Shown here in pieces: positions 8,298 to 28,419 of a stretch of DNA of 30,000 nucleotides. The stretch's first letter is position 1. Every line of letters begins with the position of its first letter. Source of the DNA: Chromera velia. Its lineage: Eukaryota; Sar; Chromeraceae. The notes below the pieces were generated by a model, which saw nothing but the letters and a program-made list of their open reading frames with translations, ran no database searches and was not told the origin of the DNA. The stretch spans positions 1 to 30,000 of the forward strand of contig JAHBMJ010000867.1 of assembly GCA_018398765.1 (NCBI GenBank), in the 5' to 3' direction. A program made the translations under genes and the position numbers.

Positions 8298-10925
8298 ATG
8301 TCGGGTGTGTTGAACGAGACCGAGCTGCTGGATCTGCTCGGGAGCTCTCCAGACATTTCCGGAGGTCAGTATGTGGTGAATGTGGGCTGGAGTCGTTGGT
8401 TCGCTCGTCTACTCTGCGGTCACAACAATGCTGTTTCTTGGTGTTGCATGCATGTATCTGCAAGATGATCACAGGCCAAAAGACCTACAAGCTGTCTCCC
8501 TTTCTCCAGCCCGACAGCTCCTGTTGACGTCATTTCTGCCCTCCTTTCCAAGAATTCGTCTAGTTTTTTCTTTGACCACCAACTTGCGCCATACATCCAC
8601 ACGTGTCTATGCTTGCCTATAGTCGCTCAAGAAGGGGTTCAATCGTTCTCACTTTCACGTTGTGTCGCTTGGACTTTCAGTCATTGAAGACGAGTATAGT
8701 CTTTGCCACAGTCTTCTTTTCTGACTTGACTTTTTTTTGGTTGCCTTGCTTCTGTACCTTTCTCTCTGTGCCTGACAGCTCATGTTCCTCCCACCCATTC
8801 ATTTGTGGTGGTGTCTGGTGGGTGTCTATTTGTGGGTTCCCTGAGCAAGGCATGACCATAGATACATCCATGTGTTTGTTGTTTCTGCCCTTCTGCGTAT
8901 CGCCACCTTTTCTCCTCTTTATGATTCATTTTATCAGATGAAAACTTTCCGGAACTGAACGACGAAGAACTCGCATCCCTCCTGGGGGAGAAATCTGAGA
9001 GCGACAAGGCAAAGGAAAAACTGCCTCCACCCGCAAAAGCCCCTGAGAAACCTCTTGATGTTGCAAAAACAGAAGAAAAGGCGAAACCGAAAGCCACAGA
9101 CCCACTGCCCCAATCTACGGAGAAAGACAGTGGAGACGAGACCAAGAAGGAGGGTTCAAAAGACGCCCCACTGCCCACCGCCACTCCGCCACCTGTACGT
9201 GCACCAGTCGCTGCTGATGCCGCCGAAGACACACCTCCAAAGAAAGGAGACAATGCAAGCGAACCCCAAGACCAAAACGAACCCCCAGTCGGACTCGAAG
9301 AAGCAGCAGGGGATCAAGAAGAGAGCGTGAGGAGTTCAGAGGAGGCCTCTGCCCCAGCCTCACAGAGAGCAAGCCACCCTCCAGACACATCCACGCCCCC
9401 CGAGCCCATCGTCCCTTCCCATCCGGGTCCCGCTCCGTCTGCAGCTCTTACTCCCTCCGCAGACAAGAGAGAAGAAGAGGAAGAGGCCAGAGACAAACCT
9501 CAATCCTCCCATTCGTCTTCTAACAAAGACAATACCCTGTCAGATAGACCCTCAGAGATCCCGGTAAAGTCGGAAACACGTGAGAGAGCAGAGAACCTGT
9601 CTGACAGTATTCGAAACAGTGAAGCCAGGCAAGAGGCGAGTAAGAAAGAAGAACCACTTTCTAAGACCTCGGGAGCTCCTAGTTCTTCCTCCCCTCTCCC
9701 TTCAGGCTCCCCGCGTGCGTCAATGCAGACAGCTCAGGAAGAGTCGCTCACATTGCGCACAGACGGGGAAGGAGAAGACGGCGAGATGCAACTTCACTCT
9801 GCCAGATCTCAAGACTTCCACTCCCCCCTGGCCCCCCCTGCTGCTGCTGCCACTCTGGGATTGAGGGGATCTACCCAGAGTCCCCGTCACCTTTCTCCCA
9901 GGGATGCGCTCCCGCCCCCATCTCAGGGACAGGAGAGAGAGAGACACGCAGAGGCACTGCGCATGAGCAGCGGGGGCAGTTTCGAGACGCCTCAACAGGT
10001 CTCGAGTCGGACTAACAAGTCTGACACTTCGTTACCGTACCAGACAGCCACAGTAGAGGCGGACAGAGGGGCAAAAGGCACTCGAGACAGGGAGAAAGAG
10101 AAAGAGAGGAATAAAACTTCCCCCCTGTCTGGTGAGGATACCGCAGGGTTGCTTGACCTTGCAGCCCCAGGAGGAGACTCTTCTCTCCACTCTCTGGTGA
10201 AGGCATTGATCCGGGCTTCCTCCTTTTCTTCTTTGTTGGGGGCGGCAAAAATAGGGGGCAAGGGGGGGGGAAGAAATCAGGCAATTGAGGAGCAGAGTGA
10301 GTGGAATGTTCTGCGTCGGGCGGTTGAGAAAGTGGTCGTGTGCAGAGGGGAGGAAGCAAGTCAGCGGAAAAGAAGGGCAGAAGAACTCGAAAAGGCACTG
10401 GGCGAATTCTCCAAAAAGAGGGGAGATAGAGGGAGCGGAAAGGTGGGTGACTTGGTGCACATCTGTCAAAGGTGATGAGAAGGACAAACTTGAGATTGAA
10501 TTTTTATGGATGACTGTCCGTTCAACGAACTGTCTTGCTAGTATCACAAATTGATCTTGGTCGGGTCTTATTGCACAAATCAGTATGCATGCTCGCCTGT
10601 CGGCATGTTTGCCTCTCTTGTTGCTCGTTTTGCTATTTGAGCCCTCTGCCCAGCTCTGTGCCCGAAAGCTTTTGGTTGCCTCCTTTCTGCCTGCTACTGT
10701 CCACGTGCGCGCGTGTGGTTTTGCGTGCGGGCAGTGAGTGTCCTGGTCGTTGATTCTTTGCTTGTTGTCATTTTCTTTCAAATTCACTTTGTCCTTTCAT
10801 TTCATTTGCATGCCTCTGGTCTCATTTGTTTATTTCGTTTGCTGCAGAGGGAAGAAAGGTGGGGTCTCTGCGCACTGTTGCTTGTTTCTGCAGTCGCGGT
10901 CAGTCAGTCTCCTGCCTGGACGTCA

Positions 10926-10971
<46 letters not shown>

Positions 10972-10973
10972 TC

Positions 10974-11013
<40 letters not shown>

Positions 11014-14000
11014 TCTCTCTCTCTCGGAGTCGGATGTCTCTTTTCAGATTTCTTCCTTTTCTTTATCGACTTTCTCTAAATGCACAAGGAGACACCGAGA
11101 AAGCAGTAAAGAGGTGTAGGAGAAAAAACAGAGGTAAATTCTCTCTCTCTCTCTCTCACACGCACACACACACACAAACACACAGAGGCAGAGAGCGCTT
11201 CAATTTCAAATTCCCTCTTTTTTCCTGCCTGCAGTCCTGTGGCCGAGAGCGTGACCGTCTGGAGTCCTCTCTGGATTCTCTGAAGAAGGAGAAGACCCGC
11301 CTGGAGGCCGAGGGGGAGGCAGAGAGAAGCGGGTCCTCTGCGGTTACCCTCCGACTGGTGGCAGAGAAGGAGGAGGCCTTGCGGAAGGCAGCAGAGGAGA
11401 AGACCCTGAGGACACACCTGGAGGCAGAGATGGTCTCCATACAGTCGGCTCGCATGGCAGACAGAATTGAGCTGGAAAGAATGGTAAGTCGCTTCCGTTG
11501 TCTCCAACAACTGACAGATACAAGACAGTGCTTCACTGTGTGGAGTGTGGTTGAATGACTGAATGGAAGGAAGAGCGAGTGCTTGACGGACTGAGTGACC
11601 ATTCTTCATGGGCATTCTTCGACCCTCCTGTCAGTGCGAAAATTGGCCGGGGGGCTTTGAAACACCAATTGGAAAGAAATTAATCATGGGGACGATGTAT
11701 TTTCATTGATCTAGATTGTCCTCTGTTCCTCTCTCTGTCTCAATGTGTCTCTCTCCATGCAGCACGAGACTCTTGGGGCCATTCAAGAGACCCTTGCCCA
11801 GGAGACGACTCAGAGACAAATGAGGGTCAGTCTGTCGGTCTGTCTGCTTATCCGTTGTCTGTTTGCTTGCCTGTTTGAGTGTCTATCCAGAGGGAGATAG
11901 TTGTCGTTAGTCTGTGTACACTTCTCTGATCAACTCACAGAAGATATTGTACTCGTGTTCCTCTATTTTGTGAGCTCTGACAATTTTCTCTCCTGTTTCC
12001 TTGACGAAGACGGTTGGCATCCACAGACATTGACGCAGACGGAGCAGCTGTCTTCCTTTGCGTTCCGGAGCTTTCCTTCGTTGTTCTCTCCACTTAGAGA
12101 GAAAGGAAGAGAACTTAACAGGAAAAGGGAAAGAGAGAACGATTTAGTCCGTGTTTTCTGTCTTTCTTTCTTTTATCCATTTACGCCCCCTCTCTGTGTT
12201 TTTCCTCACTCCGCCTTATGTGCAGGTCCAGGAAAGAATTGTGTGGAAGCAGGAGACGGCCAGTCTCCACAGACGCCTCTCTGCCCTCAAGAAGGCCAAC
12301 GCACACCTGGCCAAACACTTCTCCTTAATGGCGGGGAAGCAGAGGGAGAGCACGGGAGTTCTCGAGAGGCTGCAGGCAAGGGAGAACGAGAGGTTGCAGG
12401 AGGACGCAGAGAGGGAGGAGGAGGAGGCTGCTTATGCCACGCTTGCCGCCTGCTTTGCCCGAAAAGGGCAGCCTCAGTCAAAGTCGGGAAACCTCCCCCC
12501 TGCCTCGGGGCAGCCGCGACACGGCGCCACCTCGTCTCCTTGTCTGGCGATGCAGACTGCCCTTGAAGGAGAAGGAGTTCCAGAAGAAGGGGGGGGGCAG
12601 GAGGAGGACGTGCAAGAATTGAGAGAACGACTCGAAGAGGCCACACAACGGTACGTGGGTGGATGCACGACACTGTGGAGACTTGTGTATACAAGAGAGA
12701 GGCATCTTCTGTGTTGCCTTTTCCGAAAGTCAATTATGGTCCCCGTCCCTGAATTCATTTTTTCTCCTTGTCCCTCTATCATCTGCATGGATCTGATATG
12801 CCTTGCTTCCTGTCGGCTAGTTCTTTCTCTTCTCCCCGAAACTGGGCCCCGAGCTAGCTCGTGTACTTGTCGTGGTTTCCCTCTTTGACCTCTTTTTATT
12901 TCTTCCCACGGGGAAAACGGACGAAGAAGCAAGATCGCACAAAAGAGAAATCTGTCTTAACTCTCTTTTCTCTTCATTCTCGTGTCCTCCCCCCCCCCCT
13001 GTGCATGCATGCGCAGTATGGAGGCCCTGAAGCAGATGTACAGCAGTTGGAGAATTGCCGTTTTGAAGAACCAGGTTGGTCTTTCGGTCTCTCTATGGAA
13101 TTAAGGGATATTTTGTCCTGTCTTGCGCTTTCGCCCGCCTTGCTGTCTGCACATTTGCCCGTCGGGGTTCAGGTGCCCAGAAATGGATCGCACCGAGCAG
13201 CCGTCCGTGATTCAATGCCACTGCACGCACACTGTCCTATCATTGTTTTCCGTATTCTCCTACCGTTTCTTCTCTCTCTCTCTCTGCAGGCCAACGGAAC
13301 CTCCTCTTCCCAGGTTGCCCCCCCCCACCTGGAGGCCCTCTCTCTGGAGACAGTCAGACCCCCGTCTTCTCCATCACATACCATGTCAAGATCTCCATCC
13401 CCGTCCCCTCCCCTTGTCAGGCAGATTCCCATTCCCTCTCAACAGGCTTACGCGTCTTCCTCACTCTATCCCTCTCCTCATCCACAAGCAGGACCACACG
13501 CCACCCCCCAAATTCCACAGAGACCAGCCGCAAGTGGCCCTGATCTCTCCCCCCTCGCACCCTCCACCGTGCTCGTGCCAACAGACCCTGCAGGATCCCC
13601 GCCCTACCGTGATATCGCCGCACTCAGGGCTGCATACATGGCGGCAGCCTCAGGGCATCATCCAGCTGGAAGAAACATGAACCCGGAGGTCTCTCCCGCC
13701 ACTACATGGGCAGACGAGAGCAGAAGACTGGGGGGGCATCACCAGCGAGTGTTCCCTCACCCAGGGGCTCCCCATTTCGTCGGAGGATCTCTGCCAGTTC
13801 CTCCCGGAATGACTCTAGGAGAGATGATGTACAGGCCCATTCAAGGTCCTCTTGTAGAGGGGCGGCAGGGTCTACCGTCAAATTTTCAATTCGGGGGGGC
13901 TCCGCACAGACTTGAGGCTGGAGAGGTGGAGATGATGAGGGACCGTGGGGAAGGGACGACGATGAGGATGCGGAGGGTGATGACTGCAGACATCGCCCTT

Positions 14001-15485
14001 CAGGTCGCAGCAGCAGTCCCGGAACTTCCCCCTGAGTCCTCCTACGTGCATCTTCCTGTTGAACAAGTTGCGGTCAGTGGGAAAGGATTTTGAAAGTGGC
14101 CGCTTGATATTGGTGATGCGTCTCTTGACTGTCATGATATATCTGTGGGGATTTCCGAAGCATCCTCCAGTCACTTTCGTCCATTTGTTCATTCCATATT
14201 GAGCAGCACACTGACTCGTTCGCGAATCAATCGATGGGTCGAAATTTTCACTTGTCCCCCATTGAAACACTTCAGCTCACACGAAATTATTCACAGATCG
14301 CCCATTCAGATGAATTGAATTGCCCGCAACCCCCATTCTTTATCTATCCTTTCAATCTTCCTTTTCCCTTTCGCTCTAACCCTCTGTCTATGAATTTTGC
14401 TTCTCCCTCAACACGCATGCACGGGTCTATCTTTTTTCTGCATGTGTCGGCAAATGCATGCAGGCGCTGTGGATTCTGTGGAAGTCCAAACTGGAGCTCG
14501 TGCACGATCTGGTCAGACTCCGACACAGGTCCGATCGGTTCTCCTCTGTCGTGTCCCGCTGCAGCCGGCTGATGGACGACTCTCTATCAGAGAAGGATGC
14601 GGAGCTGCCCTCTGAGACACAGGCACAAGACTCTGAGGGCGCAAATGGCGCAGGGACCGCGTCCTCGTCTGCGGATGCAGTTGCTGCAGGGGCATTGAAG
14701 GAGACGGACATGCGCTTTCGGTTTCTGTTGGGAAGGGTGGCCGAGAGGATGAGCCAGACCGAGCTACAGCTTGCAGCCTCGGTCTTCCTTCTTTCCCATC
14801 CTTTGCAGATGATGGTCAGTGAGTGAGTGAGTGAGTGAGTGAGTGAGGGAGTGAGTGAGTAAGTGAGTGAGTGAGTGAGTGAGTGAGTGAGTGATCTCTG
14901 ATGAGAGGGCCACGCATGTTTTCGCGCTCGGACATTCAACTAATGCATGTGCTCCTGCATGTGCAAACAGCAGAGGGAGACAGAGGAGCCAGTGGAAAGG
15001 GACAGGCAGGCAAACGGTGATAAAGACAAACAGTGAGAGAGGCGCAGGCAGGCTGGCGGGGAGAAAGGAGAATGAGTTGCAAATCAATTAAGTGCATGCA
15101 TGGGGTGTTGATTTATTAACGCCCAGCCTGATTCTGAATGAAATGGCAATAGACTCTGAATGATCGACGAGTCTATGCACAAGTGGTCGCCAGAGGCCGC
15201 TGAGGCATTCGCGTTAGGCATTGGCTCACTCTCCGAGTCCCCTGTGATTTTACTTTCCGCCGCATGTATCGCCCAACGGGTGTGCCTGCCACTGTCTCAC
15301 GTCCTGTGTGTGTGCAGGAACTACGGCGGCTTGTGGAGGAATCCGCAGCAAGTCAGATAACCCCTGTTGCAAGCCGCATGGCTGCGTCTGCATCTCATCT
15401 CCTGGCGGAAAAGGTTTTAGGACCCCGAATGGCCGATGATTCAGAAAGCAGGGGGGGTGGGCCACTGGCAAGAGATGTCCACTGA
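8298..15485 (+). CDS. Large disordered/coiled-coil protein, function unknown (nine exons, about 1222 aa)
   Basis: Exons joined by GT-AG sites with consistent phases: 8298-8364, 8938-10442, 11235-11483, 11763-11825, 12226-12650, 13017-13074, 13290-14072, 14464-14814, 15318-15485 (TGA). They sum to exactly 1223 codons. Residues 1-50 are an acidic leucine-rich start (MSGVLNETELLDLLGSS, then LNDEELASLLGE) that could be a short linear binding motif. Residues about 50-440 are disordered, rich in Glu, Lys, Ser and Pro. Exons 2 (end) to 6 encode Glu/Arg/Lys coiled coil (for example DRLESSLDSLKKEKTRLEAE). Exon 7 is a Pro/Ser-rich disordered stretch. Exon 8 returns to helix (WKSKLELVHDLVRLRHRSDR). No enzyme domain, membrane segment or signal peptide is visible. 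A scaffold or cytoskeletal role is a guess from composition. The start is supported by continuous phase into exon 2; very small extra exons in introns could be missed. Confidence 0.75.
10930..11025. repeat. (CT)n microsatellite in intron 2
   Basis: This CT tract with occasional TTT interruptions lies inside the 792-base intron between 10442 and 11235. Its serine/leucine open frames are artefacts of the repeat. Confidence 0.9.
14815..14894. repeat. (GTGA)n repeat starting at a 5' splice site
   Basis: The intron after exon 8 opens GTCAGT and continues as about 19 tandem GTGA units with a few variants (GGGA, GTAA). Each unit reads GTGAGT, a good donor sequence, so the true donor is followed by an array of potential decoys. 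Only the first GT (14815) keeps the reading frame in the model given above. Confidence 0.85.
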
Positions 15486-18636: not shown

Positions 18637-19560
18637 CTACTGCCCCAAAGACTGGAGAATTCCCTCCAGTGCCTTCTCGGAGGTTGTGGCCAGGCCCACT
18701 CCCTTTTCCCTTAGAGACCTGTGCTCAAATTCACAGTCCTCCTTTGATGGATTCACTCGGATCAGACAGCGACCCTCAGACCCCAGGTGGTCTGCGTTGG
18801 CCCGAATGGACCTGACCACAACCCCGGCTCCAATCTCCAAAACGGCGAGTCTTCTTTTGGAATCGGGAGTTTCAAACTTCTTGAGGAAACGTCGATAGTT
18901 TTCTCTTTGAACTCGTTCACGGGTGTCTTCAAAATTGAAGTCATCAAAAACCAGCACGTTGGGACGAAGGCACTCCCTCTTACAGCGAGGGCAAGAAGGG
19001 ACAAAGTCGTCCTTGGCAAGGTAGGGCAGATAGGGTGTGATTGGAAACAGTTCCTCACAGCAGGGCTCTGAGCACTGGAGGAAGGCCAGACTTCCGTGGA
19101 TCTCAAGGACATTGTCCTCAGACACACCACCAGACTTCAAATGAAGGGAATCACAGTTAGAAGTAACCGCAAAGCACCGGTCCTTTCCGAAGTAATCCAT
19201 CAACTGCTTCAAAAGGGCGTAGTCCCGAGCAGGCATCACATTGGCCCTTGCAACCCTCCACTTCCAATAGTCCCAGGCCTCCTTGGCGGTTTGGCACTTG
19301 AACATGCTGCCCACAGAGAAGTCAAACCAGTCCTTTGCCTCGGGAAGACGGTGCCCACGTTGTGCTTCGTTGTAACCCTCAAGAAAGCGGAGGAACTCAG
19401 GAGTCATCTTGCCGTCTTTGGACCGAAAGACGGAGACCCCAGACATGACTGACATTCCTGCTCCTGTCATCACGATCAGACCTCCTCCTTCTTCCTTGAC
19501 TGCAGCCAGCTTAGCTGCAGCATCCTGAAACAAGGAGCGGAGATCGTCTGATGATTGCAT
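18637..19560 (-). CDS. Sir2-family NAD-dependent deacylase (sirtuin), bacterial-like subgroup
   Basis: This intronless 307-residue protein has ATG at 19560 and TAA at 18637. Sirtuin motifs occur in order: GAGMSVMSGVSVFR (residues 33-46) for NAD binding, TSNCDSLHLKSGG (133-145, the TQNID-LH-AG motif with Ser for Gln), EIHGS with the catalytic His at 155, zinc cysteines at about 163, 167, 190 and 193, CLRPNVLVFDD (197-207), EIGAG (242-246) and IRVNPSKED near the C-terminus. Sirtuins remove acyl groups from lysine using NAD+. The TSN-D variant, the LRPNVL-F-D loop followed by a Q/R-rich helix, and EIGAG in place of EGTS resemble a bacterial Sir2 subgroup more than nuclear SIRT1-like enzymes. The usual HxAL after the ANxxP motif reads DYALL. 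No targeting peptide is clear. It is divergent from the ENO4-like gene. Confidence 0.92.
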   Translation of the reverse strand: MQSSDDLRSLFQDAAAKLAAVKEEGGGLIVMTGAGMSVMSGVSVFRSKDGKMTPEFLRFLEGYNEAQRGHRLPEAKDWFDFSVGSMFKCQTAKEAWDYWKWRVARANVMPARDYALLKQLMDYFGKDRCFAVTSNCDSLHLKSGGVSEDNVLEIHGSLAFLQCSEPCCEELFPITPYLPYLAKDDFVPSCPRCKRECLRPNVLVFDDFNFEDTRERVQRENYRRFLKKFETPDSKRRLAVLEIGAGVVVRSIRANADHLGSEGRCLIRVNPSKEDCEFEHRSLREKGVGLATTSEKALEGILQSLGQ

Positions 19561-20363
19561 CAGGCGAAGCAGGCGAAAAAGACACAGATTGATAGGAGTG
19601 GCTAATCGGTGTGGTGTCTAGAGGCCGCCGAACTTAGAGATACGTAGTTGACCAGACACTTGGCTTACCAAAGAATGAAGGCCGATCAGTAATAACGATT
19701 CCTCGACTTCTCTGACTTGCTGGGGGAGGGAATGAATCATCACCAAACGTGACCACCCCGAACCCTCAAGTCAAAACGTGATCAGGAAAAGATAGGAAAA
19801 GAGGATATGCGTACGCCGCGCGCGCGTGTGCCACAAAAGTCAACAGCTATTTTAGTTATAATTGACTGCGCGCATGCAGCGCGCGGCCCCGCGCGGCTCC
19901 GCATGCATGGTCCGCGTCGAGGCCGGCGTGCGTCGATGACGCGCTTTTTGTGCAACACCTTGCATGCATGCAACATGCAGCTAGCTCGATCATTAATTGT
20001 TTCACTTGAAGTACGGCCGGCGACGACTTAGTATATACGTACGTGATGATCGACATCATCGTGATGACGATCTTCGATCGTTCTGATTCCTTCACTGATC
20101 GCCGGAGAGCCTCGTGCTGTCACTCATCGGCTCCGCTCCCCTGGTTTCGACCAATCAAGCAGTGCAGTTTCTGGAACGTTAGACTGTATCTAAAACGCTG
20201 GTTTGCAAAGGTCTAGATCCGCGTAGACGGGCCAACTATTAGTACACGCAGTACGCCAGATACTCAACATCGAGGGGCCCGGAGTTCTGCAGAAGATCTG
20301 AATTTCAGTGTCACAACGTCTGCTTGAGTTCAGGGGTGAAGAGCCCATCAAAGACTCCAGTCG
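19561..20363. promoter_or_regulatory. Shared divergent promoter region
   Basis: This 803-base gap lies between the start codons of two divergent genes. TGCATGC-type palindromes stand at 19872-19878, 19901-19909 and 19961-19971. A short GC-rich block (about 19868-19930) with CGCGC and GCGCGGCCCCGCGCGG is followed by palindromes such as TACGTACGT (20037) and GATGATCGACATCATC (20045-20060). This would suit control of both genes from one site. Assignment as promoter rests on position and motifs only. Short open frames here are spurious. Confidence 0.5.
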
Positions 20364-21977
20364 ATGAGAGACGCTCGTCAGTCTGTAAGGGTTTTCTGTC
20401 TGATCGATTTCGGATTCTCTCGTCGTGCAGCTGAGTTTCTTTGCCTGTCAGTGCGGTCTTGATATTCCTTCACGCCATAGGTTTTCCACCTGCTTGCCGA
20501 AAGGCTTGTGCGCTTCTCTGAACTCCTGTTCTTTTACTCTTTCACTGCAAAGGAAACTGTTGTCCCGTGCTCTGTTGTCATGCCTATGTGCGTGCAGACT
20601 ATTTGCCGACGAAGGTTCGGCAGTACATCGAAGAGCACCAGGTGAGCGCATACACAGGTCTCTCAGTGAAGGAGACCCTGTGCGATTGGCAGAGCGTCGA
20701 GGATAGTTATGCGGACGGCATTGGGTAGATGGATACACGGGGCTGTTTCTTTGCATATGTAGAGCGTTTGGTGGCACTCGGGGGAGAAGTTCGTGAAGAA
20801 CAGCAGTAGGTATGCGTTTGACCGGTGCCATACCGCAGAGAGAAAAGCAGACGCGTGGCAACAGAGACCATGTTTCTTGCTCAACCGAGCGGCGGTGTTT
20901 TTTTCGACTTTGAGGATGTTGCGGACTTCTTCTTCCAGACTGCTCCTTTTCCTTTCTTCAATGACTTTTGTCTTCAGCCGACAGGTCGTCCTTTTACTCC
21001 TGCGCAGTCTCTCGGCGCACGAATAGATGGAGATGAAGGAACATGCGCTCACGCACAGAGAATCAGACACAGAGAGAGACAACACGATTCACCCGTCTGC
21101 AGAGGCTGATCCCTCCCTCCCTTCCTCCCTGCCTCTCTCTGCATGCAGTTGAACGAGAGGGTGAATGTGGTATTGAATGAAGTCCTGAAGGCCCTCCCTC
21201 CCGACCCTTGGGGGGCAATTGGAGGGAAGCTCTACGCGCACTCGGACGAGATTCCGGAGTTTGAAGGTCTAGAGTGCGTGTTTGAGGACGAAGACACTCT
21301 GACGGTCGGTCTGTGGGGTCTGTCTGTTCTTCCTTGCTGAGCATATGAGTGGATGCATGCATGTGTGAATTGACACTTGCTGCTCACATCCCATCCTGCA
21401 GGTGAATGTAGTGTTGAACGTCCGTGCCGCGAGGGTCGTGGTGCACTCCCTCAAGCTGCCTCGGTCGGACGTTCGGAGAGCGGAGGCACAGAGCGGAGAG
21501 GGGGGGGGGGAGACGACCCCTGACGACATCAGCAAGGGTGAACTCTCTCAGGAGGCAGCGTTGATCAACGGGTCAGATGGGGCAGGAGGTTGCGACAGAA
21601 AGAGGTGGAGTGGAAATGATTATTTCTCCTTCTGTCCGAAGGACTCCTTTGGAAGCCTCCTCTCTGTCTTTCTTTCTGGGATGATCTTTTTTTGTATTTT
21701 ACTTTCTTTTTCTCTGCCTCTGGCCACATTTTTTGCCCGCACATCAAGAACAAGAAAGAGCTGCAAGAGGTGGAAAGAGAACGAGAGAGACAGAAAGATG
21801 GGAACGCACACATGGGCATGCACAGACGCACGGAAAGAGAGAGAGAGGGTCAGATTGACAGCGAGGCTGTCTGAGCGACCAAAGACAACACAGGGAGATT
21901 CTGCGAAGAAAAGACCAGAGAATGTGTTCCGAAAGAGGGAAAGTGAGGCAGAAAGAGACGGTCCCTCTCTCCCTCTC

Positions 21978-22042
<65 letters not shown>

Positions 22043-25000
22043 CCTTTCTGCAGTCCTTTGGGTCGATGTGTGAACAAGATTAGGATATCTGACCTGGTTA
22101 CTTGTGAGGAGAGGTGGGCAGGTGCATGTCTTGTCTGTGTTTACTTGACCTTCTTTTGTAGAGCGGGAGGGAGGACGTTTCTTGACATTCCATTTGAAGG
22201 CCTCTTCTCTCTCTTCTTGCCTGAAGACTGAGGGGGCGCTTTTCAATCCAATTTGCCAATCAGTTTCCGGGTAAGGAAGGGGATGAGGCGACTGGAAAGG
22301 AACAGGCGAGCTTGAAGAGAGACAGCTGGCGTGTGTGCATGTATGGGGGATTGTTTCTGAGGTCTGGACATTCTGCTGGGCTGCGTGAGCTTTGCTGTAA
22401 AATCTCATGCAGTCGTCAGGGTTATTTTTTGATGTGACAATAAATAATCTATCGCTTTGACTCCAAAAGCTCTGTACGTTCAATTTCGTCCCCCATGGCT
22501 CTTTTCCTGTTCCCCTGCCCTAGCTCATTCATCCCTTTCTTTCGTCCCTCAGGGTTCGCTCTGTGGTCAAGCAAGCAGGACTTGAGGTGAGCTGACTTCT
22601 TTCTTTTGAGATTTTTGTTTTCCTTCGTGACTCGGAAGGGTGTGCAGACAGAGGGAGGGAGGGAGGGACATAGAGACAGAAGAGGACCCAGTCCGTCGAA
22701 CCGTGTTTTCTTTCTCCCTTGTCTGGTCCTTTTTTTCCTCTTGTCGTTGCGTGTGTGCAGAGAGAGATGGCTAAGTTAGATAGATGGAAGGAATTCAAGG
22801 TTAAATTGACTGCTTTTGCGTATGCGAAGACAAAGGAAAAAGGCATCAGACAGTCAACTTGCCGCACAGATCCAAACTAACGAACGAAATTCGAAAACAA
22901 CATTGCTGAAGGAAAATCATATTTTCAGTGACAAAAGTTTATCTTTCTTTCTCACCTTCCTTCCCCCTTTGCTCCTTTTTGTCTTTGCAGTCTCCAGACA
23001 ACCTTTCCCGCCTGATTTGCGACGCCCTCTTCTGGGCTGCTTCCAACGGACTTGCAAAGAACGGACTCGAAAGTCAGCAGAGAGAAAAGAAACAAAGAAA
23101 CCACCGGCCTACATTCATTTCGGAAGACGCAAGCTGGCAGTCAAGCCGTTTGAGTTTCAGAGGGAACGACCGCCGTACCTTTCTGGGTATCAGCTCGTTT
23201 CCTTCTGCATGTCTTCGGAGGGTCCAAAATTCAGTGCTTATGTGCATGCGTCTCTCTCTCCCTCTCACTCTCGTGTCTTCCTTCGCATTCTCTTCTTGTG
23301 TGTCTTTTTCTCTCAACGTCTTTCTGTCTCCAGGTTTTCCACAGAGGCAAATTATCTTCCGTTTGGACATGCACTCTCATTTTGCATCCTTGGGGATTCT
23401 TATTCAAGGCATTAATTAAACCTACTCCCTGTGAGCGGGACTTTAATTCTCTGTATGTTCTTTTCTGTCGGATTCTGTGCTTTCAGCTGCACTCGACGCT
23501 GCCCTCGCTGCGAGTGCCTCTTGCCTGCCCTCCCTGACGACAAAGGAGACTCTCGTGTTCTCCTTCGGTCTCTCAAGATCGGCAGCCGACAAATTGGTGG
23601 AGCTTCCATTTGTGCCTAGTCTCTCCGCAGTGCCCGTGAGGGAACAGAAGGAGAAGACGGAAGGGGGGGAACAAAATGCAAACGCAGGCCTCCCCCCTCC
23701 CCCCATTCCCCCGAGAGAGGGGGGCAGCTTCTGGCCTCTGCTTCTTGCAGATGTGATGAACTTTGAGGCGGTCGGTCCGTCCGTTTTCTTCTTCTGTGTC
23801 TTTTCTTTCACCTCTCCCACTCTCACACATTCACGTCCCTCTATCTTTTCTTCTTTCCTCCTTTCATCCGATTCTCCAAGCTTCTAATGTTTCCTTCTTC
23901 ATTCACTGGGACAGTCATTCTTCCTTCTTTCTCTGCACCCTTCTCTCCTGTCTCTGCACCATGTCCACAAGAAATCGATTGTCCATTCCTGTGAACAGTA
24001 TAAAGACAGACAGTGAAAGTATTTTACTATGCTTCACCAACCTTGCTTGATGCAGCCCTCTCCTCTTGGGAACGCCTCGCTGGGCCTCTGCGTGAGTGCC
24101 CCCACGGAGGTCTTCTGGGTCACCCCAACCGTCGACAGGCCCTCGTCGAAGGAAGTCAAGGGCGGGAAGAAGGACGACAAGGCCGCCGCAGCTGCACAGC
24201 CACCGCCAGCAGAAGGAGAGGATCCGCCCAAACCCCCGCCTCCCCCCCCTCCTCTGTGCACTGCCCTGTTCTCAAGCGGAAGAAAACTGATCGCTGCAGC
24301 GAAGGAACAAGTGACCGCAGTGCTTACAGCAGACAAAAAGGTAGGCAGACAGTGGTGATCAATGTCCTTTGAAGCGTTTTGTTTGATAGATCCTATTCGG
24401 TTTTGTCTGTCTTGCTTCTTCCTACTTGTTTTCCAGGCTTGCTCCTTTTAATTTCTGCTCGCTGGACCTCCGATGGTTTCCTTTCCTCATGCTGTGATGC
24501 CTTCTCATGAATCCAGACACGTTGTTTGTATATTCGTCTGTATCTGCCTCTCTGCTTGGGTGAAGGGTCGGTTGTGTTCTTTCGTTCCTGGCTTGAGTGA
24601 AGCGACTGCTTTCCGATTCCCTTTGACGTTTCTTTTCTGCCCCATTTCTTTCTTTTGATTACTTTTGTATTTGCAGACTGCAAGCTTCATCGTTGATGGC
24701 AAATGTTTTTGTCCAGAACCTTCTCTCGGTTGGTCTGTGTTCTCGGTGTCATATCAAAATATTCATATATTCTCAATTCCTGCTTTGTTGGGCTCTCCGA
24801 TGGGTTCTTTTCCCTTCCTTTTCTTCTCAAATCAGTTGTGGATGAGGTGAATGAAGGGTTGACAGAATGTTTCTTTCACCTATCTGGTGTTGGCTACATG
24901 TTTCCTTTCCTTGAGGGCGTTCTAGAAGTTCCCTGCATTCGTCCGTCCAGTGTGGGCATTCGTTTTGTTGCTTTTGTATGTCCTCTTCCAATTATTTGTG

Positions 25001-27684
25001 AGTATTTTGCAGGCTGAGAGGTTGCTGGCTTTTTCTCTCTTTCTCTTTTTCTGCTTTTTTAACCTCTTTACATCTCGCCCATTCTTTCTCTCCTCCCCCT
25101 CACAGCTGTTGGAGCCAAACTTGTGGGACAGGCTGTCACACAGGCATTGCCCCAGGTCAGCTGAGGGAAGCTGTAGAAGTATGAAGGGAAAAGGCAGACA
25201 AAGGAGGGGAGGTGCAAGAGGAAGAAGAAGAGAAAAGTATACTTTCACCCGCGTACATACATATCTTCCTCTTTGCTTCCCCGCGCTCATCAATCTGCAC
25301 TTGATCTTTTCTTCTTCTTCAGCGGCTGTGTCAGATGCGGTTGGGGCACTGTTCGGCTTCTTTCTGGTAGGTTGGTTTCGATGAAGCCATTGTGTGTTTC
25401 CTTTTCCGACAGAGCACAAGACGGACTGCAGAAGCACTTCGCCTTCTTTTGGACAGTTGGGAACGTTTTGTTTTTGTTTGTATTAACTCCTCCAGACTGT
25501 CTGCGTGCCTCTAAATCTGTAGTACTTGGCAAGCCACCCCCATTCCCTGTCTTCTACACTTTGTCCCCTCACCCCCTTGATTGGCTGCAGGCTGGCTTTC
25601 CTGGAATGAAGGTGTGGTTGCGGGCTGGAGGTGAGTTGGAGGTTTTCGATTTGGAGCGGTGACTGGAAAACGTTTGTTTCTTTTCAAAAACTCCCTTTGA
25701 ATGTCCTATTATCACACCGCTTTTTTCTGCGCCCGCCCTCTCGTTTTCTTTGTTCTCTTCATTTGAGCCCCCCCCTTCTCAGTTCCATTTTGACCTTTCG
25801 GGCACCCTCTTTAAGTTTTCTGCCTTCTTCACTGGTTGCCCCCCTGCCTGTCCTCTCAGTTTCTTCTATGCAGCGCACGGAGGCAGGCGCATTCGCGTGG
25901 GACGGCGCAGGGACGGGAAAGTCTGAGGAAGAACTGGTGAGTCGATCAGCAGAAATGAAGGCGGGTGGAGAAGAGGAGAGAAGATAGTTGGAGGGCTACA
26001 ACGAGAGACTGAAGGGGGAGGATCATGTTGTTCTCTGTTACTCTTCCAGATTTGTCAATAGGAAGAAGTCTGCCGGCGTTTTTATTTTTTTTCACTTGCA
26101 TGCTGAACTTTGACATTTTATTTCTTTCGAAGGTCCTTCGAAGAAATCCTTCGAACTTCCCGCATCGATCTCCTCGTCTACTCGATGTTGTCCTTGTCAG
26201 AAGTGCACGGGTGTTTATTCAGGTATTGATATGTTTCCTTCTTTTACTGTTTTCTTGCTTGCGCTCGCTCCACTCCCCCTGTAGGGAAGGAAATCATATG
26301 AAGGATCACTCACTGGAAAGGTGAATTTACTCTTGTGACCAAAGAAAGCAATGAGCTGGGTGAATTCAATTGAATGGAATGGAAAGAAAATGATCATGCA
26401 TGTGCAGGTCGAGGCAATCGCAGAGGCCATCGAGGCCATCCCCCCCCATCTGCGGGGGGGAGTTCTGGACGTTGACGTGGAGGGGGGGGCAGGAGACGGA
26501 TTCCTGGTCAAGGCACTAAAGGTCAGAGGGAGAAGAGAAGAACAGTCAGGGAATAGAGATCTCTCTCACACATATACATATACATGTACGTATACATACT
26601 CTCTCTCTCTCTCTCATATCATAAAATTTTTGTTTCTTTGGTTTCCCTGGATTTCTTTAAAGGTCGTCACTTACACTTGGTGCCCGGCGCATTGCGGCAA
26701 GGACATCAATCAGTGCACGCTTGTTCCGCCAATTGTAATTTGGTTTTGCCTCGTCTCTCCTCTCTTCATTTCCACTTCTTCTTGTTGTGCTCAGAACCAC
26801 CTCCTACTTTGCATGAATCTTTCGCTCCCTGCTCATGTTTCTGCTTCTACTCCTCCTGGAGCATGCAGGAGAAGTTTCCTGACCTGTCTCTGGTGTTAAA
26901 AGCCCCCGCACCCCCAAAGGAGGGAGAGGAGGAGAGACCCCTGCTGCGCCCGAAGGACGAGGTCAGTCTGTCAGGCGGTCTGGCAGTGGGGGGTTGAAGT
27001 GAAGAAGAAGGCGGAGGGAGAGTTGAGGGAAAGGGGGGGAGAGAGATGTGAAACACAGACGAAAGACAGATCCTTTTTGGTTTTTTTCTGCTGATCACCT
27101 TCGTTTCTACAGTTTTTTTATCTTCTTTGGTAAATTTATCTCTTTCTTTAGTGCGCCCTGCTGTCTTTTTCTCTTGCTGTGTTGTTTTTGCGTTCCTCAT
27201 ACTTGAATCTCTCTCCTGAACGAATGTCTTGCAGGCCCTAGGTGTGTGGGTGGGAGGGGACTGTGCGGCCTCTCTTGCACGACAGTCGGCCACTCTGAAG
27301 GTGAGACGTACAGAAAAGGGGAGGTTGAATGCACATACTTACAGACGCTGGAAAGCGGAAAATAGTCCTGTCTTTCTCTGCGTTGCTTTGTCCGTCACTC
27401 TCTTTTTCGACGCGTCTGTCTTTTCAGGGAGAAGAAAGAAAGACGCGTAGTCTGTCTTTCGACATTGCAAATTTTCATTCAGACGCAAAAAAAAGGAAAT
27501 CAGAATTGACCAGATTGTCTTGGTGATTCTCCATACAAAGATTTGATTATTTTGTTTGATTGATTGTCTGTCTGTAGAGGCTGGGGCAAGGATCAATGTT
27601 GCAGTTACGCCCTGCTGTGGTCCTGTGCACCATTCTGCCTGCAAGCTGGATGATTGGACGCTCTCTCTCTTTCCCTCTGCGCGC

Positions 27685-27732
<48 letters not shown>

Positions 27733-28419
27733 CTGTGGTTATTCATGTATGTGATTATCGATCCTTCCTTCAGGGTGCCGGTCTCCGAGTGGTCATCGAC
27801 GTCTCCTCGACCCTCTCTCCTCAGTTTCCCTGCACAGCCATGATCCCGGTCGGTCGGTCGGTCGGTCTGATTGTCTTTTTTCTTGGAGATCTTTTTGGTC
27901 GTCTGTTTGATTCTGCGTTCACAACAAAGAGAAGGGCAAAGACAGGCACGATTGATAGATGTGCAGATAGATAGATCAAATGCGTCGTGCTTCCTTCCGC
28001 CTTCATGCATGCTTGTGGCAACCAACCGCACATCGATCGGCCGTCACTCACACACACCCTCCGGAGGACCATCAAACATCCCAAACACTACCCCACACCA
28101 CCCACCCCCACTTCCTTCCTTCAATCACCGTCCTGTCTTCACTTCGTGCTTGAAGATCGTATGATTTGTTTCTCTCCCGATGCGCCTGCAGTTTGTCCTC
28201 GCTGGACGTGACAAGGACTCTCCGGGACTCCTCTACGTTGGCAGTGCGGTGCCATCGGAGGATCTCTGTACAGCCGTCGACAGGGAGATTGTCCGAACAG
28301 TGAAGAGCGCACGACAGAAATCAGAAACCTCAGAGAACCAGGCGCAGGGCCCCTCTGCAGTGGAGACGAGGGGAGGGGGGACGCCGGCGGTGGAGGTGGC
28401 ACCGGAACTTCAGAACTAG
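20364..28419 (+). CDS. Enolase 4-like protein (probable pseudoenolase), about 26 exons
   Basis: Proposed exons: 20364-20384, 20431-20446, 20598-20641, 21149-21304, 21402-21537, 22162-22270, 22553-22586, 22991-23072, 23141-23186, 23487-23770, 24056-24340, 24677-24728, 24836-24846, 25013-25020, 25106-25155, 25323-25366, 25413-25475, 25591-25630, 25860-25936, 26133-26222, 26408-26521, 26869-26961, 27235-27300, 27578-27694, 27774-27848, 28192-28419 (TAG). Order of motifs follows ENO4: a helical YLPTKVRQYIEEHQ and VLNEVLKALPPDPWG start resembling a dimerisation domain, a Pro-rich linker, GFPGMKVWLRAG with AFAWDGAGTGKSEEEL, VWVGGDC (enolase VGDDL), GSMLQLR (enolase LLLKVNQ, Lys to Arg), LRVVIDVSST (enolase VVSHRSGET, His lost) and LLYVGSAVPSEDL (enolase IKTG-RSER, Lys lost). 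It is therefore probably not glycolytic. Animal ENO4 is flagellar; that role here is inference. Weak points: the first two exons, 23072-23487, 25013-25155, 26133-26222 and the donor near 27694. Confidence 0.6.
21981..22042. repeat. (GT)n microsatellite in an intron of the ENO4-like gene
   Basis: About thirty GT units with one GC interruption lie in the intron between exons ending at 21537 and starting at 22162. Reading frames across it are artefacts. Confidence 0.9.
27693..27731. repeat. (GT)n microsatellite at a putative 5' splice site
   Basis: This GT tract lies where the exon starting at 27578 should end. Any of several GT units could serve as donor; only those with the right phase (for example GT at 27695) join in frame to the exon at 27774. 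Confidence 0.85.
27849..27869. repeat. (GTCG)n short repeat at a donor site
   Basis: The intron after the exon ending at 27848 begins with tandem GTCG units, giving repeated GTCGGT donor-like words. It parallels the GTGA array at 14815. Confidence 0.8.

Follow-up and report, generated by a model that had tools for sequence, protein, structure and literature searches.

In Chlamydomonas, enolase has been located in the C1b arm and interpreted as belonging to a factory that supplies nucleotides locally (PMC9113940), and in Tetrahymena, Eno1 was lowered in cilia lacking C1b, yet failed to co-purify with the subunits of C1b (PMC8175508). In the mouse, GFP-ENO4 was seen in the central lumen of ependymal cilia (PMC12979858), sperm C1b was reported without enolase (PMC12297659), and a 2021 review considered sperm accessory structures a more probable place for Eno4 than the central apparatus (PMC7999657). 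Eno4 has been called vertebrate-only, with unpublished substitutions at critical residues cited (PMC7132099). The titles retrieved from the open-licence literature included none describing an alveolate ENO4, and the gene described here may well be annotated elsewhere. It lies in a 30,000-nucleotide stretch of Chromera velia DNA (contig JAHBMJ010000867.1, positions 1 to 30,000, forward strand), referred to below as the window. On balance, we favour the reading that the product of this gene is a pseudoenolase of the flagellar type, extended at its N-terminus, which would serve as a structural subunit tethered through its N-terminus.

A multi-exon gene filling exactly positions 20364 to 28419 had been proposed by an earlier, sequence-only reading of the window, and was recovered here. 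Exons were read from open frames and joined by hand, giving 17 exons in a single frame from an ATG to a stop codon (Table 1). The preferred model comprises 1863 nt and encodes 620 residues (65 kDa); forms of 615, 653 and 683 residues were also analysed. All 16 introns are of the GT...AG type (97–981 bp), with a CAG acceptor in 16 of 16. Exon 1 was picked because exon 2 must be entered in phase 1 and no ATG precedes it as far as the first stop upstream. A search of the organism's own genome (177,833,721 bases in 4040 contigs, the window lying on contig C866) with 660 residues of the 683-residue form returned 12 matches, all 12 at this locus on C866. It is improbable that exons of different genes have been fused in the model, or that the gene has decayed: doubts attach to exon 1, exon 6 and one optional stretch of this sequence-only model, but the 17 exons share one frame, the acceptors are uniform, and no stop interrupts the 620 codons. 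As far as sequence can tell, the gene is genuine. The optional stretch (26133–26222) keeps the frame, but has an AAG acceptor against CAG in the other 16, and was omitted; without it, the sequence across the junction resembles an enolase helix. In its favour, the score with the axonemal enolase drops when it is omitted, to 137.6 from 155.4 if exon 6 is long and to 131.0 from 148.8 if exon 6 is short.

Five pieces of the spliced product were searched against 177,635 PDB sequences. For an N-terminal piece of 43 residues (9–51), the sole match at E ≤ 10 was 7n6g_6G, a phosphopyruvate hydratase, with residues 3–33 aligned on 3–33 (E 0.11), bearing out the N-terminal helical segment of the sequence-only reading. 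We take 7n6g chain 6G, together with 7sqc, to be the Chlamydomonas axonemal enolase. A longer piece of 83 residues placed the same enolase second of 3 matches (E 0.68), and the reversed 43-residue piece gave one match, which was no enolase (E 4.6). Analysis of the 683-residue form by hhalign aligned the N-terminus with the 7n6g enolase at E 4.6e-4, and with a profile of 41 enolases at E 0.0092, and in glocal alignment of the N-terminus alone with 7n6g the score was matched by none of 2000 shuffles. Over 33 residues, the segment shares 13 identities with 7n6g (score 64), compared with 8 and 10 (scores 47 and 39) for two other loci of the genome, L064 and L065, and 8 (score 40) for a provisional vertebrate ENO4 sequence. 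At E ≤ 10, the product's N-terminus had no match to Pfam Dpy-30 (PF05186), a family that the 7n6g extension itself matches weakly (E 0.1). The predicted product has an N-terminal extension of the axonemal-enolase kind.

Further likeness was found in one stretch of the enolase barrel. With a 150-residue barrel piece (residues 330–479), the first of 3 PDB matches was enolase 4a3r, presumably that of B. subtilis, aligned over 218–294 (E 0.78). In hhalign comparisons of the 683-residue form, a barrel stretch aligned in order after the N-terminus with the 7n6g enolase (E 0.33), and with the 41-enolase profile (E 0.24). When 7n6g was left out, the remaining 40 enolases gave one match, to the same barrel stretch (E 0.39). 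This set held 39 prokaryotic sequences and one from the organism's own genome; of 52 loci retrieved, 51 were usable for reading, and a length and motif filter removed 12. A third program, hmmsearch, aligned profile positions 200–280 with the preferred model at −1.2 bits, a score matched by 18 of 500 shuffles. For the 653-residue form the counts were 10 of 500 at full length and 5 of 500 without the N-terminus, and for the 683-residue form no alignment was reported; adding the provisional ENO4 to the profile gave counts of 22, 20, 14 and 9 of 500. In the hhalign, hmmsearch and PDB piece searches alike, the barrel stretch fell on one and the same region of enolase. Clear enolases make up at least 67 of the 177,635 PDB sequences, and enolase as the best match for two pieces, ordered and in register, is therefore unlikely to be due to chance, although the piece E-values are not significant in themselves, and the pieces were picked after inspection of the alignments.

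Whole-protein alignments gave a clear signal only when the N-terminal extension was included, whether by glocal, hidden Markov model or spliced alignment. Glocal alignment of the full-length 683-residue form with 7n6g gave a score reached by 0 of 2000 shuffles, as against 13 of 2000 without the N-terminus, 3 for the barrel and 100 for the middle part; the full-length preferred model was equalled by 6 of 1000. Against a matrix built from the 41 enolases, the counts were 4, 5 and 14 of 150, depending on the kind of shuffle. Spliced alignment of the locus DNA with the 7n6g enolase scored 145.5, compared with a mean of 115.0 for 120 shuffles (standard deviation 10.9, maximum 150.0), and 88.0–128.0 for 11 other stretches of the genome, including the reverse strand of the target; genuine enolase loci, of which two were aligned, reached 1465 and 1385. 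Ten ungapped blocks picked by hand, one of them taken at two lengths, gave eleven rows; five rows were equalled by at most 15 of 2000 shuffles and six by at least 157.

Several results weigh against an enolase origin. Neither the 683- and 615-residue forms nor their pieces matched the Pfam enolase families (PF03952/PF00113) at E ≤ 10. Both forms matched 0 families, and the pieces gave chance matches only (YopE, E 0.23; PqqD, E 0.17). A 259-residue barrel part had no match in NCBIfam. The full-length product found three chance matches and no enolase in the PDB, where the N-domain (165 residues, 52–216) had no match, and the C-terminal 117 residues (471–587) had one, unrelated. The reversed barrel had as its best PDB match an unrelated protein at E 0.32, which is stronger than the forward enolase match; neither the reversed barrel nor the reversed 43-residue N-terminus, both exact reversals, found an enolase there. 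Once the N-terminus was removed from the preferred model, 12 of 500 shuffles equalled it in hmmsearch, and in glocal alignment 229 of 1000 were as good against 7n6g and 903 of 1000 against gamma-enolase; the spliced alignment fell to 118.0 without the extension, against 111.5 for shuffles (standard deviation 10.3), which is not significant. The middle and C-terminal parts may be assigned to enolase only weakly; for strand 5 of the C-terminal part there are two candidates, LSLVLKA or LGVWVGGD.

The module is also found elsewhere. The first 80 residues of the 7n6g enolase found five places in the genome. Two were ordinary enolases, matched from residue 41 or 42 on, outside the extension. The other three had E-values of 0.29, 0.64 and 3.0, and two of them (L064 and L065) encode a similar module, with no enolase seen in the open frames inspected there. 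The locus in the window was missed by this search, probably because its segment is divided between exons 2 and 3. With L064 and L065, the 7n6g extension reaches scores of 78 and 72, above its score with the segment of the product. Since the module is shared with loci where no enolase was seen, it is by itself no proof of enolase ancestry. The segments, which are DPY-30/RIIa-like, lie at C2220:11915-12013 (L064) and C3697:58453-58557 (L065), are identical to each other at 20 of 33 positions, and have Lys- and Glu-rich open frames nearby.

These results bear on the main rival explanation, an unrelated flagellar protein that shares a DPY-30/RIIa-type docking module and resembles the barrel by chance. 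The presence of the module at two loci where no enolase is seen, the weak barrel statistics, and the lack of a Pfam enolase match all fit this explanation. It is countered by the barrel piece, for which enolase remains the top PDB match even though the N-terminus is absent, in a register repeated by two other programs, and by the module, which, among the four sequences compared, scores best with the axonemal enolase. We regard an unrelated protein as a less probable, though serious, alternative. The lack of a profile-level enolase match had been named beforehand as refuting the sequence-only reading; Pfam indeed gave none at E ≤ 10, and the enolase claim is kept alive only by weaker, order-consistent evidence. 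The domain order of ENO4 proposed in that reading stood for the N-terminal extension and one barrel stretch, and lacked an enolase match for the N-domain and C-terminal pieces. A family link to flagellar enolase is likely.

The catalytic motifs, which had been described as apparently replaced, are gone. None of ten enolase signature motifs (PSGAST, GGSHAGN, QEFMI, GDEGGF, GMDVA, IEDP, VGDD, LLLKVNQ, SHRSGE, KTGAPCR) occurs exactly in the product, and a six-frame translation of the locus contains no exact copy of any of them. The closest copies have one mismatch for IEDP and VGDD, two for GMDVA, and three or four for the other seven; the one-mismatch IEDP copy sits within a proline-rich stretch. 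Judged by eye, the substitutions are Glu211 to Gly, Asp246 to Arg, Glu295 to Asp, His373 to Ser and Lys396 to Tyr, the C-terminal positions being taken from an uncertain alignment and the numbering being the one we assume for the enolase active site. Having lost the catalytic and metal-binding motifs, the product should not run the enolase reaction. The Chlamydomonas axonemal enolase, which resembles it in the extension and in one barrel stretch in register, keeps the enolase motifs, whereas the protein in the window lacks an intact copy of any of them and contains proline-rich insertions.

Two ordinary enolases are encoded elsewhere in the genome, on C3528 and C732. They share the proposed fold, but differ in keeping the catalytic motifs, which are spread over their exons, and in neither was an N-terminal extension of this kind seen. 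Both contain an EWGWS insertion, which is typical of plants and alveolates. The enolase on the minus strand of C732 (L010) has, by eye, an N-terminal leader resembling a signal or transit peptide, and is perhaps a plastid form.

Vertebrate ENO4 has a similar N-terminal extension and a degenerate active site, the latter as stated in PMC7132099. Comparison with the provisional ENO4 sequence held for the N-terminus only: glocal scores were reached by 5 of 2000 shuffles there, 206 of 2000 at full length, which is not significant, and 1980 of 2000 for the barrel. In hhalign, a low-complexity match came first (E 0.0013) and the extension second (E 0.26), and in the spliced test the reversed ENO4 outscored the forward one (193.5 against 153.0), a low-complexity effect. 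The proline-rich linker of the sequence-only reading is present as stretches in exons 7 and 8, at a position that would differ from that of the proline-rich stretch in vertebrate ENO4. ENO4 identity, rather than N-extended flagellar enolase in general, is a candidate assignment only. A sub-case of our favoured reading, and not an addition to it, is a lineage-specific pseudoenolase that decayed from flagellar enolase independently of animal ENO4, with convergent loss of catalysis. The displaced proline-rich stretches, an alignment with the provisional ENO4 no better than shuffles, and a module nearer to the Chlamydomonas-type enolase than to ENO4 speak for it; high divergence could by itself mask orthology, and we hold convergent loss as a tentative possibility.

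If the protein is a flagellar pseudoenolase, its N-terminal helices, of the DPY-30/RIIa-like kind, would form a dimer and bind a partner helix of the flagellum, possibly within the C1b region of the central apparatus, the seat of the Chlamydomonas enolase. A diverged enolase N-domain and then a barrel would follow, both devoid of catalytic and metal-binding motifs, and as a subunit, perhaps of the central apparatus, the product would have a structural or regulatory role. We infer the axonemal role, flagellar location, docking partner and function, as well as how the N-domain and C-terminal part fold.

The host is non-animal, as had been stated: 58 light-harvesting protein matches were found in the genome, which therefore belongs to a photosynthetic alga, and an alveolate of the chromerid kind is likely. 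The genome search gave 0 matches to Photo_RC, so that the plastid offered no clue to the type of host. The central-apparatus partners SPEF2_D5 and Hydin_ADK also had 0 matches, which is uninformative as control genomes were equally silent. Within the window, Rfam gave no match. An open frame at 18640-19617 on the minus strand, adjoining the gene on the opposite strand, matches the Sir2 family (PF02146, E 1.4e-13). The plus strand at 8925-14093 contains several long open frames of up to 516 residues; those at 8925-10472, 10641-11555, 12148-12885 and 12858-14090 had no Pfam match at E 0.01.

Table 1 Features of the putative flagellar pseudoenolase gene in the window
Feature	Position	Strand	Basis or remark
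Whole gene	20364..28419	+	17 exons, 620-residue product, 16 GT-AG introns, one frame
Exon 1, candidate start codon, 13 nt, uncertain	20364..20376	+	Picked for correct phase
Exon 2, first half of DPY-30/RIIa-like N-terminal segment	20598..20641	+	
Exon 3, remainder of N-terminal segment and beginning of putative enolase N-domain	21149..21304	+	
Exon 4, putative enolase N-domain	21402..21571	+	Frame and splice sites; domain without PDB match
Exon 5	22553..22586	+	Frame and splice sites
Exon 6	22991..23072	+	Alternative end 23186 likewise in phase; choice uncertain
Exon 7, first proline-rich stretch	23487..23770	+	
Exon 8, second proline-rich stretch	24056..24340	+	
Exon 9, VDGKCFCP replacing GDEGGFAP	24677..24728	+	Block matched by 15/2000 shuffles
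Exons 10-13, best-supported barrel stretch	25106-25155, 25591-25630, 25860-25936, 26408-26521	+	
Exons 14-17, putative remaining barrel and C-terminal tail	26869-26961, 27235-27300, 27774-27848, 28192-28419	+	Frame and splice sites; no enolase match
Optional in-phase 90-nt stretch, outside preferred model	26133..26222	+	AAG acceptor

A broader proposal, which we consider speculative and rather unlikely, is that a dead flagellar enolase already served as a structural subunit of the central apparatus in the last common ancestor of animals and alveolates; ENO4 would then be an ancient axonemal pseudoenzyme and not a vertebrate novelty, with glycolytic supply a secondary or lost role. If the flagellar pseudoenolase is confirmed, a non-enzymatic flagellar enolase would not be solely an animal invention. 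Eno4 is described as vertebrate-only (PMC7132099), and C1b enolase is viewed as serving nucleotide supply (PMC9113940). A dead algal flagellar enolase would mean that a structural role is separable from glycolysis, and would open the question to tests in a protist.

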